Shown in pieces: positions 2,969-8,439 of a stretch of 25,112 nucleotides of DNA. The notes below the pieces were generated by a model. It did no database searches and had not been told where the DNA came from. It saw only the letters and a list, made by a program, of their open reading frames with translations. A program made the position numbers and the translations under genes. The first letter of the stretch is position 1; each line of letters opens with the position of its first letter. This DNA is from Gemmatimonadaceae bacterium (GTDB lineage Bacteria; Latescibacterota; UBA2968; UBA8231): contig PBSR01000258.1 in NCBI GenBank assembly GCA_002726335.1, forward strand, positions 1 to 25,112. The letters are read 5' to 3'.

Positions 2969-4471
2969 TCAAGCGAGGGGGAATTCGGATGCCGCCAACA
3001 CCTCTTCCTCAGGGTCCAGAGGAAATATGGGGCGCGGGCAGCGGCTATAGGGCAGGCTGTGCAGGTTGGCGCTCGTGGAGCCAGGTACGTCGACTGGGAT
3101 GATACGCGCAGCGATCGACTCGTAGTGGGTGCGGAAGCCGTTGGGTGACTTCATCGACACCAGGTCGAACTCTTCGGGGTCCAGGCCATGAGCGAGGAAC
3201 AGCCGCCGGCCCATGACATGGATGTGCCTTTCGGTGACCAACACTTGGATGGTGTCCGCGATCACGAGGACGGCGGTGCGGCCGGCGTGAGCCCGGGTGC
3301 GATCCTCGTAGAGGAACTCGCCGTCCCCCAGGCTCCGTACGTAGGCCTCAACCCGCAGCGGTGTGTGACGAGCCGGATCGAGGCTGCCCCCCAGATGCAG
3401 ACAGGTGTGGGTGCCGACGCCGGCCTCGATGGCGGCTGCCACGGCGGGCGCATCGACGATCGTCAGCAGGGCCCGCCGGTCAAAGCCGTGCTCGATCAGG
3501 CCACGAAGGATGTGGTTGCTGTCACCTGACGCACCCGAGGACGTGGCATCGGCGGCGTCGGAGAAGACGCACAGGCCGTCGGTCTTGCGGGCCTGACGAA
3601 TCGCGTCGTCGAGCGGCGTGAGGGGAGCCTGCAGACGGGCGCGATGAGACCACAGGAAGCGGGCCATGGCCAGCGCCTCTTCCCGGGCCCAGGCTTGTAC
3701 CCCATCGCCGGCGGACTCGTCGGTGGCCAGAATCACATTGGAGCGCAAGTCGGGGACGTCGGTGAAGGGATTGCCGATCAGGACACCGGCAGCAAGACCC
3801 CGTGGGTCGGCCTCGAAACGCTGACAGCGGCGGATCACTTCGCCAAACAGGCCCGTGGCTGTGAGCAGCTCATCGCCTCGTACGAGCATGGGCAAGCGAA
3901 TTCGCGTGGTCAGGGCCCGGGTGCCGTCGAGCAGTTGCAGCAGCACGTGGGCCGCTCGCTGTCCGGTCTCGTGCTGGTCGGTGTGGGGATAGGTGTGGAA
4001 GGGGAGGATGGCATCGCTGCCGTCGACCATACGATCCGTCAGGATGCCGTGGAGGTCCATGGACAGCACGACAGGTACATCGCCCACCAGCTGTCGAACC
4101 CGCTCGAGGAGGGCGCCCTCGGGGTCCATCTCGAGCTCTCCCACCATGGCACCGTGCAGGGCCAGGTAGACGCCGTCACAACCCGCCCGGATGGCCTCGG
4201 CCACGGAACGGGAGAATTGCTCGAGAAAACGCTGCAGATCGGCTTCTGCCACCGGTCCCCCGGAGCCGGACCAGGCAGTCAGGGCGGTGGCCACGTCAAG
4301 TCCGACGGCGTCGAATACGCCAAGGGCTCCACCCACTTCCGTCGACGTGGCTCCGAGGACGTGCCGCACTTCGGGGCCGTCCACGGCCTGGAAGTCGTCG
4401 TGCACCGTCAGAACGGGATTGAAGGAGGAGGTCTCCTGGATGAAGCCGGCCAGCAGGACGCGTCGTGACAT
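2969..4471 (-). CDS. M81 family metallopeptidase (microcystinase MlrC-like)
   Basis: A 500-residue protein of the MlrC (M81) zinc peptidase family, named for linear-microcystin cleavage; most members act on unknown small peptides or amides. Seen: the N-terminal [10 protein letters not shown] (family HETNTFSP, with Gln in place of His), LALHGAMV, and candidate zinc ligands D139 and H141 in MDLHGI plus H163 in TYPHTD. The D-x-H-21-H spacing matches MlrC. The rest corresponds to the MlrC C-terminal domain. No signal peptide. The ATG at 4471 is chosen because the family N-terminus ([12 protein letters not shown]) begins there; an upstream extension to 4576 would run into the divergent polA gene. 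No good Shine-Dalgarno is seen. A 15-bp inverted repeat covers the start codon. It is the first gene of an operon with ppk2 and the FAD oxidoreductase. The real substrate is unknown. Confidence 0.87.
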
Positions 4472-4550: not shown

Positions 4551-7370
4551 ATGTCCACTGCCTCACCTGAGACCAAGACTCAGAGCCAGGCGGATCGCGC
4601 CCTGGGCCGAGCCGCTGAACTCGATCTCGATGACCGCAAGGTGTTGTGTCTGCTCGACGGCATGGCCCTGGCCTACCGTGGCCACTTCGCGCTGATCAAC
4701 AACCCGGTGATGACCTCGTCGGGCATGAACACCTCGGCGCCGCTGGTGTTCATCAACACCCTGCTGGAATTCCTCGAAAAGTTCGAGCCGACGCATATCG
4801 CCGCCGTCTTCGACGCGCCCGGGCCAACGCACCGCCACGTGGAGTTCGCCGAGTACAAGGCGACGCGGGACCGCATGCCGGAGGATCTGAGCTCGGCGTT
4901 GCCCTATGTGTTCAAGCTGCTCGAGGCGTTCCAGATCCCGGTGCTGCGCGTCGAAGGCTGGGAGGCAGACGATGTGATCGGCACCCTGGCCAGGCGCGCT
5001 GACAGCATCGGCATGACGACCTACATGGTCACACCGGACAAGGATTTCGCCCAGCTCGTATCGCAGAACACCTGGCTCTACCGGCCCGGGCGTGCCGGCA
5101 AACCCGCGGATCTGCTGGGTGAGGACGACGTGCTGGCCAAGTGGAAGATCCAGCGGGTGGATCAGATTATCGACCTGCTCGGACTGATGGGGGACACGAG
5201 CGACAACGTGCCCGGTGTACCCGGGATCGGCGAAAAGACGGCGCAGAAGCTGCTGGCCGACTTCGACACGGTGGAAGATCTGCTCGACCGGCTCGATGAG
5301 CTGAAGGGCAAGCGCAAGGAGACGCTGGTCGAGTTTGCCGATCAGGCCCGGTTGTCGAAACGTCTGGTGACGATCGAAACCGAGGTGCCCCTCGATGTCG
5401 AGGTGGAGGACCTCAAGCGCAGCGAAGCAGATCAGGTCGAACTGACGAAACTGTTCTCCGAACTCGAGTTCAACGCCCTGGGCAAGCGGCTCTTTGGCGA
5501 CGACTTCGAGGCCGGTGTGCAGCGCATGAAAGCCGGCGTTGAGGATCCGCACCAGGTCAAGAGCATCGCCGAGGTGGAGCACGACTACCGCCTGGTGGAT
5601 GGAGTTGAAGCTCGTACCGAGCTGATCGCTGAGTTGCAGGACAGCGATCGCTTCGCCCTGGACCTGGAGACTACGAGTCTCAACCCGAAGACCTGCCAGA
5701 TTCTCGGACTGGCGGTGAGCACGAAGGCGCACACCGGAGCTTTTGTCCTGTTCCCTGAAGACGAGAGTGAGAACCGCGCGGTCCTGGAAGAGCTGCGGCC
5801 CCTGTTGGAGGGACCGGGTGTCAAGGTGGGACACAATCTGAAGTTTGATGTGACCGTTCTGCGCTGGCACGGTGTGGGTCTGGGCGGAACCTTGTGCGAC
5901 ACCATGGTCGCCGCCTTCCTGGCCACACCGGACCTGCGTCGCAGCATGGACTACCTGGCCCAGGCCCTGCTCGGGTACCGTCCGATCCCGATCAGCGACC
6001 TGATTGGCGAGCGCGGTTCAGATCAGCGTTCCATGCGCGACGTGCCCATCGAGGATCTGACCGAGTACGCCGCCGAAGATGCTGACATCGCCCTGCAGCT
6101 GTGGGAACGACTGGAACCCCTGCTCGCGGAGTCAGAGCAGGCACAACTCTACCAGCGGGTCGAAGCGCCGTTGATCCCCGTGCTGGCCGCCATGGAGCAC
6201 GCCGGCATCCGCGTCGATCCCGAGATCCTCAAGGTGATCTCCGACGACCTGGCGCAGAAGATCGAGAGCTCGGCGGCGCGCATCGAGGAGCTGGCGGGGG
6301 AGCCTTTCAACCTCAATTCGCCGCAGCAGCTCGGGCAGATCCTGTTCGAGAAGCTCGATCTCGACCCGAATGCACGGCGCACGGCCAAGTCGAAGCAGTA
6401 CAAGACGGACGAGATGGTTCTCACCCGGCTGTCACACGAACACGAGATCGCCAGGCAGATTCTCGACTATCGGCTCTGCACAAAGCTGAAGTCCACCTAC
6501 CTGGACATGCTGCCCGGGGCCATCTTCAGCGGCAGCGGGCGCATCCACACACACTACGAACAGGCGGTGGCGGCGACGGGTCGTATGCAGTCGAGTGGAC
6601 CGAATCTGCAGAACATTCCGATCCGTACCGAGCAGGGCCGTGAGATCCGCAAGGCCTTCGTGCCCGGCGGACCCGAGTACACGCTGCTGTCGGCTGACTA
6701 CTCGCAGATCGAGCTGCGTATCATCGCTGAGATCTCAGGCGACGAACGTATGAATGAGGCCTTCTCCGAGGAGGAGGACATCCACACCGTCACCGCGTCC
6801 CGCATCTACAACGTGCCCCCGTCCATGGTGGATGATGACATGCGGCGCCAGTCGAAGACGGTGAACTTCGGCATCATCTACGGCATTTCTGCCTTTGGCC
6901 TGTCCGAACGTCTGGGCCTGCCGCGCAAGGTGGGGCAGCAGTTCATCGAGCAGTACTTCGAAGAGTATCCCGGCGTTCGCCGCTACATGGACGAGACGGT
7001 CGAGTTCTGTCGCGAGAATGGCTACGTGCGGACCCTCAACGGGCGCCGGCGCTACCTGAAGGACATCAACTCCCGCAATCGGGCGATCCGTTCCGCCGCC
7101 GAGCGCAACGCCATCAATTCGCCGATCCAGGGGACGGCGGCGGACATGATCAAACTCGCCATGGTGACCATCCACCAGCAGCAGCTCGAGCGCGGCTGGA
7201 AGACGAGGATGCTGCTTCAGGTCCACGACGAACTCGTCTTCGATCTGTACCAGGAGGAAGAGGCGGAGGTGCGGCAAGTGGTGGAAGAGGCGATGCAGCA
7301 GGCGATCCCGATGAAGGTGCCGATCGTGGTGGAGATGGGAACGGGGCCGACCTGGCTGGAGGCACATTGA
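4551..7370 (+). CDS. polA: DNA polymerase I
   Basis: A 939-residue Pol I that fills gaps and removes RNA primers in replication and repair. There are three domains. First, a 5'-3' nuclease (about 28-320), with LLDGMALAYRGHF, the acidic DDVIGTLA cluster, GDTSDNVPGVPGIGEKTA and the helix-hairpin-helix region. Second, a 3'-5' exonuclease (about 350-540), with Exo I DLETTSL (about 370), Exo II GHNLKFDV (about 427-434) and Exo III YAAEDADI (about 505-512); the acidic residues are all present, so proofreading should be active, unlike in Taq-type enzymes. Third, a family A polymerase (about 560-939), with motif A SADYSQIELRII (about 712-723), motif B RRQSKTVNFGIIYG (about 765-778) and motif C QVHDELVF (about 890-897). 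The ATG at 4551 is the first in frame, and residues 1-27 are a non-conserved leader. It is divergent from mlrC, and the stop lies 3 bp before the tandem hairpin repeat. Confidence 0.97.
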   Translation: MSTASPETKTQSQADRALGRAAELDLDDRKVLCLLDGMALAYRGHFALINNPVMTSSGMNTSAPLVFINTLLEFLEKFEPTHIAAVFDAPGPTHRHVEFAEYKATRDRMPEDLSSALPYVFKLLEAFQIPVLRVEGWEADDVIGTLARRADSIGMTTYMVTPDKDFAQLVSQNTWLYRPGRAGKPADLLGEDDVLAKWKIQRVDQIIDLLGLMGDTSDNVPGVPGIGEKTAQKLLADFDTVEDLLDRLDELKGKRKETLVEFADQARLSKRLVTIETEVPLDVEVEDLKRSEADQVELTKLFSELEFNALGKRLFGDDFEAGVQRMKAGVEDPHQVKSIAEVEHDYRLVDGVEARTELIAELQDSDRFALDLETTSLNPKTCQILGLAVSTKAHTGAFVLFPEDESENRAVLEELRPLLEGPGVKVGHNLKFDVTVLRWHGVGLGGTLCDTMVAAFLATPDLRRSMDYLAQALLGYRPIPISDLIGERGSDQRSMRDVPIEDLTEYAAEDADIALQLWERLEPLLAESEQAQLYQRVEAPLIPVLAAMEHAGIRVDPEILKVISDDLAQKIESSAARIEELAGEPFNLNSPQQLGQILFEKLDLDPNARRTAKSKQYKTDEMVLTRLSHEHEIARQILDYRLCTKLKSTYLDMLPGAIFSGSGRIHTHYEQAVAATGRMQSSGPNLQNIPIRTEQGREIRKAFVPGGPEYTLLSADYSQIELRIIAEISGDERMNEAFSEEEDIHTVTASRIYNVPPSMVDDDMRRQSKTVNFGIIYGISAFGLSERLGLPRKVGQQFIEQYFEEYPGVRRYMDETVEFCRENGYVRTLNGRRRYLKDINSRNRAIRSAAERNAINSPIQGTAADMIKLAMVTIHQQQLERGWKTRMLLQVHDELVFDLYQEEEAEVRQVVEEAMQQAIPMKVPIVVEMGTGPTWLEAH

Positions 7371-7373
7371 CAG

Positions 7374-7509
7374 GCGCTCGATGGAGCATGCCCGGCTGCG
7401 CCGGGATGCTCATCTCGCGGGCCGTGTTGGAGGCCGACAATGCGCTCGATGGAGCATGCCTGGCTGCGCCAGGATGCTCATCTCGCGGGCCGTGTTGGAG
7501 ACCGACGAC
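7374..7509. repeat. tandem 68-bp repeat, each unit with a long hairpin
   Basis: Two head-to-tail copies (7374-7441 and 7442-7509) start 3 bp after the polA stop. They are near identical: apart from a changed pair inside the stem, differences are confined to the 3' end of the unit. Each unit can fold into a 14-bp stem with two single-G bulges and a TGC loop. The stem pairs ATG with CAT, AGCAT with ATGCT, and CCCGGC with GCCGGG (copy 1) or CCTGGC with GCCAGG (copy 2). The C-G pair 7393/7403 of copy 1 is a T-A pair 7461/7471 in copy 2, so pairing is kept by a double change. No T tract follows, so this is not a classic terminator. It could protect the polA mRNA 3' end or be a dispersed REP-like element. 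No other copy is seen in this window. The rest of the spacer to 7602 holds no gene. Confidence 0.85.
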
Positions 7510-7602
7510 TCGCTGCACTCGCGCGGCTCAACACGGTTCGGGGATTCACCCCGGCCCCGACCCGACCCCAACTGCAATGCAGGCAACCAGGGAGTCTGTC
7601 CG

Positions 7603-8439
7603 TTGATCATTGACACGCACACACACTTTTATGACCCCACCCGCCCGCAGGGCATTCCCTGGCCGCCGGCGGACAACGAGCTGCTGTACCGTACCGTTCT
7701 GCCTGCTCATCACCGTGAGCTGGCAGAACGGGAGGGTATCACCGGTACCGTCGTCGTCGAGGCCAGTTCGTGGCTCGATGACAACCAGTGGATTCTTGAT
7801 CTGGCGGCCGAGGACCCGTGGATCGTGGGCTTCGTCGGACACATCGATCCGGGAGCGGAGTTTGCCGAGCAGCTGGCCCGCTTCGCCGACCATCCCCAGT
7901 TTCTCGGGATTCGGCTCGGTGGCGGAGTCTTCGACGATCTGCACTCGGGAACGGCGTTGCAGGACATCGAGGAGCTGGCGAAGAATCTCCTCGCCCTCGA
8001 TGTCCTGGTGCGCGGCGAGCAGATCGATGCCGTCGGCGCTGTGGCGCGACTGTTCCCCGAACTGCGTATCGTCATCGATCATATCGGCCACGTACCGATC
8101 GACGGTGACGAGCCGGAGGCCGCCTGGCAGGAGGCCATGACCCGCACCGCCGAGTGTCGCAACGTCTACTGCAAGGTGTCGGCGGTAGCCGAGCAGTCGG
8201 TCACCCAGCCCGCACCTTCTGACGCTGACTTCTACCGCCCCACACTCGACGCCCTGTGGCGCATCTTCGGGGAGGACCGGGTCATCTTCGGGACGAACTG
8301 GCCCGTCAGCGACCGGGCCGCCGATTTCGCCGCGGTGGTCGCCATCGTGCGCAATTACGTCGAGGCCCTGGGTCCCGAGGCAGCGGCCAAGTACTGGTAC
8401 GCCAACGGCAAGAAGGCCTATCGCTTCACCGACCGGTGA
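7603..8439 (+). CDS. amidohydrolase family 2 protein (lactonase-like TIM barrel)
   Basis: A 278-residue protein of the Amidohydrolase_2 family (PF04909), which includes L-fuconolactonase-like lactonases and decarboxylases. Seen: the N-terminal metal motif DTHTHFYDP (H6, H8), the strand EGITGTVVVEASS, the later His in IDHIGH (about 160), and near the C-terminus GTNWPVS. At that last motif most relatives have D (GSDWPV), the residue that activates the metal-bound water; here it is Asn (about 232). The enzyme may use another base, belong to a subfamily with Asn, or be inactive on classical substrates. The start is TTG at 7603, 8 bases after AGGGAG (7589-7594); starts further upstream would translate the hairpin repeat. 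It lies between polA and amtB on the same strand. The substrate is unknown. Confidence 0.82.
   Translation: MIIDTHTHFYDPTRPQGIPWPPADNELLYRTVLPAHHRELAEREGITGTVVVEASSWLDDNQWILDLAAEDPWIVGFVGHIDPGAEFAEQLARFADHPQFLGIRLGGGVFDDLHSGTALQDIEELAKNLLALDVLVRGEQIDAVGAVARLFPELRIVIDHIGHVPIDGDEPEAAWQEAMTRTAECRNVYCKVSAVAEQSVTQPAPSDADFYRPTLDALWRIFGEDRVIFGTNWPVSDRAADFAAVVAIVRNYVEALGPEAAAKYWYANGKKAYRFTDR

Follow-up and report, generated by a model that had tools for sequence, protein, structure and literature searches.

A tandem 68-bp hairpin unit downstream of polA in a Latescibacterota contig looks like a local duplication

Two adjacent 68-bp units, each folding into a hairpin, lie directly behind polA in contig PBSR01000258.1 (assembly GCA_002726335.1), of which a stretch of 25,112 nucleotides, referred to here as the window, was analysed. 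A first-pass annotation had observed that the stem-loops of the two copies differ only by a coordinated change at one base pair. It had read this as selection on the fold and had proposed an unnamed REP-like family or a structure at the 3' end of the polA mRNA. The locus raises the question of whether the pair belongs to a dispersed family, is a fold maintained by selection, or is the product of a local event within one lineage.

Locus and structure of the repeat unit

The polA gene (4551–7370, + strand) encodes a DNA polymerase I of 939 amino acids with Pfam domains PF00476, PF02739, PF01367 and PF01612. It is followed on the same strand by a spacer of 232 bp (7371–7602) and a gene for an amidohydrolase of 278 amino acids (7603–8439; Pfam PF04909), the true start of which, as judged from relatives, is probably the TTG at 7603, preceded by GGGAG. 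Three bases separate the polA stop codon from the first unit (7374–7441), and the second (7442–7509; the TRF array ends at 7506) adjoins it in direct orientation and exact register. The positions originally reported for the repeat, 7374–7509, were exact, and the units are identical at 63 of 68 bases. The five differences, at unit columns 20, 30, 60, 66 and 68, are transitions without exception; the last three lie beyond the hairpin, in the unit's final nine bases. The fold predicted for the spacer also pairs CCGTGTTG (7490–7497), from the tail of copy 2, with CAACACGG further downstream (7529–7536); the copy 1 equivalent of CCGTGTTG could compete for this pairing, which lies within 7490–7536.

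The hairpins occupy 7375–7419 in copy 1 and 7443–7487 in copy 2 (both + strand), with cores at 7380–7414 and 7448–7482 of the same structure. Each core is a stem of 15 pairs (6 + 6 + 3), in which the arm GAT-(G)-GAGCAT-(G)-CCCGGC is followed by a TGC loop and then by its complement, the bulged G residues lying at columns 10 and 17 (7383 and 7390 in copy 1). Beyond a TC/TC internal loop, an outer stem contributes three further pairs (CGC/GCG), yielding 18 pairs in all. The two bulged Gs and the TGC loop were described correctly at first pass, but the stem length of 14 bp given there falls one pair short of the core.

A 29-base core pattern with 25 fixed bases and up to three mismatches had an expectation of 0.00 in shuffled sequence. 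Sixty dinucleotide shuffles of the whole window contained one hairpin of at least 15 bp in total, compared with three in the window itself, two of which are the unit hairpins and the third of which lies inside the amidohydrolase gene. The rarity of such patterns and hairpins in shuffles indicates that the hairpin and its duplication are real. Fold z-scores of the unit ranged from -2.2 to -2.3 on the + strand and from -3.1 to -3.5 on the - strand. The hairpin in the amidohydrolase coding sequence (7694–7731) has 15 bp, equal to the pair count of the unit cores, and a loop of 6; another, different hairpin of 13 bp is present in the amidohydrolase gene of the relative G022 (locus L173, 3584–3613).

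A T tract is absent from the sequence at the array, and the two terminator-like sites called between 6800 and 10200 both lie elsewhere, in agreement with the initial reading that this is not an ordinary intrinsic terminator. Rfam covariance models yielded no matches above gathering score in the window.

The tandem could in principle have been created by misassembly, and the record is apparently derived from a metagenome. With five mismatches between them, the copies do not represent one set of reads simply assembled twice. Additionally, the protein P0001, on a separate contig of 2010 bases, covers part of copy 2 (MPGCARMLISRAVLETDDS...) with the copy 2 residues, one residue differing downstream; this contig supports copy 2 and says nothing on copy 1. 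An assembly artefact is accordingly considered highly improbable.

The spacer (7371–7602) is free of stop codons in all three + frames, so that a predicted amidohydrolase can run into the repeat, as in the case of P0001, which starts inside copy 2. A coding origin of the unit was rejected on codon-position G+C, which was unlike that of the neighbouring genes, and searches of Pfam, PDB sequences, a protein collection and five relative genomes returned only noise or P0001. A phage or plasmid origin was also rejected, there being no phage match and only weak plasmid matches (best E 0.1). Relatives of the amidohydrolase were not found in viral contigs.

The paired change in the stem

Columns 20 and 30 of the unit are stem partners, forming C-G in copy 1 (7393/7403) and T-A in copy 2 (7461/7471). 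The copies are otherwise identical over columns 2–46, and the double change had therefore been correctly identified as the sole difference within the stem-loop.

The frequency of such an event by chance was estimated by placing five differences at random and counting Watson-Crick-compensated stem pairs. A compensated pair arose in 7.7% of cases when only transitions were permitted, as seen here, and in 2.6% when any substitution was permitted, figures on which it bears that the locus was chosen for displaying a paired change. Owing to the ambiguous end of the unit, variants were also simulated with four differences over 66 sites (5.0% for transitions, 1.6% for any substitution) and with three over 65 sites (2.6% and 0.9%). 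Given exactly two differences within the 45-nt hairpin, these are stem partners in 0.018 of placements. By itself, the significance of the paired change is weak; the evidence is suggestive and is no proof of selection.

Predicted + strand energies were -26.2 kcal/mol with C-G, -24.0 kcal/mol with U-G and -24.7 kcal/mol with U-A, so that a two-step route would be cheap, the U-G intermediate costing little. According to PMC8794818, compensatory changes in RNA genes are consistent with single-event template switching in imperfect palindromes, and 61.0% of simultaneous changes are of the A-T/G-C or C-G/T-A types. The change described here resembles this quasi-palindrome mutation in being a paired change in an imperfect palindrome, and C-G to T-A is a common type. 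That study, however, concerns RNA genes with reconstructed ancestors, whereas here two copies are compared. Three-base loops are under-represented among its simultaneous compensatory changes (3.52% versus 6.11%). The template-switch tract would also need to be short, because both bulged Gs were left unrepaired.

Since chance alone accounts for 2.6–7.7% and a single template-switch event of the kind outlined in PMC8794818 could suffice, the statement that the double change implies selection on the fold is too strong and was not established. At least three explanations of the paired change are adequate, and they are not separable with two sequences.

Search for further copies and comparison with REP elements

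The core pattern with four free bases had no exact match in genome_contigs, described as comprising one genome per species for 84,980 species, and a degenerate core pattern had none in viral_contigs. None of 25 genomes of the order matched with up to three mismatches over 41 bases, nor did any of 64 genomes of the phylum with up to two mismatches over 28 bases. A third copy is absent from the rest of the 25-kb window. The whole spacer matched nothing in G001–G003 better than E 0.22.

A covariance model built from both copies, which scored its own copies at 102.7 and 102.0 bits, returned matches at E ≤1 in 8 of the 25 order genomes and, under stricter filters, at E ≤0.1 in 2 of the 64 phylum genomes. 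The top score in relatives was 24.6 bits; the covariance search suggested at first pass therefore produced matches at noise level and no copies. The highest-scoring match (G024:C161; 24.6 bits, E 0.098) retains the two bulged Gs and lacks a single pair among those it spans. It was rejected as a divergent copy and treated as a chance match because it lies inside a long open frame, of 491 amino acids, identified by reading and not by Pfam as a histidine kinase with a receiver domain. The other phylum match at E ≤0.1, in G041 (24.0 bits), was rejected as well, being by eye mainly a common GTGTTGGAG stretch. In a narrow search of the literature on Latescibacterota or Latescibacter, no repetitive extragenic or intergenic tandem-duplicated stem-loop was found.

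In PMC3733652, REPs are described as elements of high copy number, located downstream of genes and with GTAG or CGTC on one side, those of the GTAG type being associated with RAYT transposases. Judged by that description, the unit is similar to a REP in being a short palindrome with a small loop and 1-nt bulges that lies downstream of a coding region and in tandem copies. It differs in that both copies in the window have direct orientation within a 68-bp unit, in the lack of GTAG and of a stem-adjacent CGTC, and in the lack of detected dispersed copies, the copy number being two in the 25-kb window with none found in the searched relatives or collections. Neither GTAG nor GTRG is present on either strand of either copy. 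CGTC occurs in copy 2 only, on the reverse strand and 16 nt off the outer stem, GYAG occurs only across the loop, and GTMG only in the unit tail; the loosest form of the tag, GYRG (as GCGG), overlaps the paired bases at the foot of the outer stem (columns 44–47).

The Y1 transposase domain PF01797, present in 8 of the 25 order genomes, was not found in G022, G024, G025, G001 or G002, and a Pfam scan of 20 frames of the window did not detect it either (86 ORFs of at least 100 amino acids were listed). The look-up for a RAYT gene, proposed together with the repeat family, was thus negative in the nearest genomes and in the scanned frames. As the unit shares the location of REPs and lacks their tag, it was not classed as one.

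Orthologous spacers in relatives

The junction of polA and the amidohydrolase gene was seen on one contig in five relatives (G022, G024, G025, L001 and L004), and the unit is absent from the orthologous spacer in all five; besides the G genomes, polA junctions were read at 3 of 80 listed loci. The distance from the polA stop codon to the DTHTH motif is 241 bases in the window, 21 in G022, 123 in each of G024 and G025, 42 in L001 and 24 in L004. The shortest spacer is that of the nearest relative, G022, in which 371 of the last 400 residues of PolA and 234 of 275 residues of the amidohydrolase are identical. The spacers of G024 and G025 are homologous to one another. Their best alignment with the window spacer covers 17 nt at the unit start (15 matches, two gaps), a score reached by 22 and 26 of 300 shuffles, and a remnant of the unit in these spacers is possible from the alignment. 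In L002, whose PolA is 58% identical, a different gene was read after polA. L001, L002 and L004 come from contigs with the label Gemmatimonadetes or Gemmatimonadota, and one of the nearest amidohydrolases, 85% identical (P0004), bears the source name Candidatus Latescibacteria.

With five orthologous spacers lacking the unit, it looks like a lineage-specific product of the spacer and not an ancestral element. The suggestion of an unnamed REP-like family was not borne out: the searched collections and relatives contained no second locus, GTAG is missing, CGTC is not adjacent to the stem, the Y1 domain was not found in the nearest genomes and the orthologous spacers are without the unit. Of the refuting observations named at first pass, the absence of further copies was thus obtained for the searched relatives.

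Gene-end hairpin units in sister species

A TRF census covered 130 stretches (1,536,917 bases) from five relatives, with a close look at the arrays of G024:C86 and G025:C181; further arrays were recorded, many of them in G014. Both contigs carry arrays of 88–92-bp units at gene ends, in each of which lies a short palindrome, such as GGCAACGCAAGCGTTGCC or GGCAATGCTTTGCATTGCC. These are located at 2250–2330 and 2767–2977 of L194 (G024:C86) and at 3270–3533 and 4063–4310 of L227 (G025:C181), and a gene-end unit lies at about 1290–1375 of L273 (G022:C481). Behind a gene ending in ENEPxAA, the unit is present once in G022 (C481) and once, as a partial copy, in G024 (C86 near 2258–2319). In G025 this gene is followed by a tandem array, the extra copies of which repeat the tail of the gene including its stop codon. 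In G024 as well as G025, another gene close by ends in a tandem array. When one such unit was used in a similarity search at E ≤0.01, matches were confined to 3 of 25 genomes (G022, G024 and G025), on one contig each. These loci show that the clade multiplies gene-end palindromes by local duplication without wide dispersal.

The sister-species units resemble the window unit in placing a palindrome at the 3' end of a gene, in tandem at some loci. They differ in that their sequence is unrelated and uncompensated stem changes are present, and the G024 unit, unlike that of the window, has a GTAG next to its palindrome on the reverse strand. In the sister-species palindromes, a loop change accompanies one paired C-G/T-A change and other changes break pairs, which provides no argument for strict selection on the fold.

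Origin of the repeat

The explanation that we favour and consider probable is that a palindrome of the spacer was duplicated in tandem within this lineage, the paired change most likely arising from one template-switch event. That a duplication took place is suggested by the two copies and by the absence of the unit from the five orthologous spacers. Within a lineage-specific spacer of approximately 230 bp, a 68-bp segment containing a natural palindrome would have been duplicated in tandem, after which the copies would have diverged at five sites, two of them stem partners. The partner change would most likely represent a single template-switch (quasi-palindrome) event in which one arm was corrected to match its counterpart; alternatively, it may have arisen by two compensatory steps via a G-U intermediate or by plain coincidence. 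If transcribed, the array would give the polA mRNA a 3' end with two stable hairpins, which might hinder 3' exonucleases or loosen the coupling to the gene that follows. A role as an mRNA 3'-end structure at polA is possible on the basis of the predicted fold.

Were the hairpins a selected 3'-end or intercistronic pair, stabilising the polA mRNA or attenuating read-through into the amidohydrolase and ammonium transporter genes, the paired change would be compensatory. The strong fold on both strands (z -2.2 to -3.5), the low-cost U-G intermediate on the + strand and the pairing with each other of the only two bases changed within the 45-nt hairpin (0.018 of placements) are consistent with this. 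The argument, however, concerns one pair only, for which chance over five differences amounts to 0.026–0.077, long-term constraint is not visible with 0 of 5 orthologous spacers carrying the unit, and there is no Rfam match; selection of this kind is regarded as rather unlikely. More doubtful still is a REP-like dispersed element restricted to the species or genus. Its bulged palindrome directly downstream of a coding region and in tandem, features of REPs according to PMC3733652, and the degenerate GYRG tag (GCGG) at the outer stem foot (columns 44–47) would fit such an element, but no copy was found in the searched genomes or elsewhere in the 25-kb window, GTAG is absent, CGTC is confined to copy 2 and the Y1 domain was not found in G022, G024, G025, G001 or G002. 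We hold it to be equally improbable that the pair is the founder of a species-restricted, tag-less hairpin family, spread by local tandem duplication and kept foldable by template-switch repair.

On the evidence of the collections searched, the unit pair appears to be an ordinary duplication at one locus rather than the mark of a novel repeat family. It offers a clean, small example of why a single compensated base pair does not prove that an RNA structure is under selection. Taken with the units of the sister species, it suggests that hairpins at gene ends in this clade can arise and multiply locally; should the pair prove to be the founder of a hairpin family, new 3'-end RNA structures would arise repeatedly in the clade.
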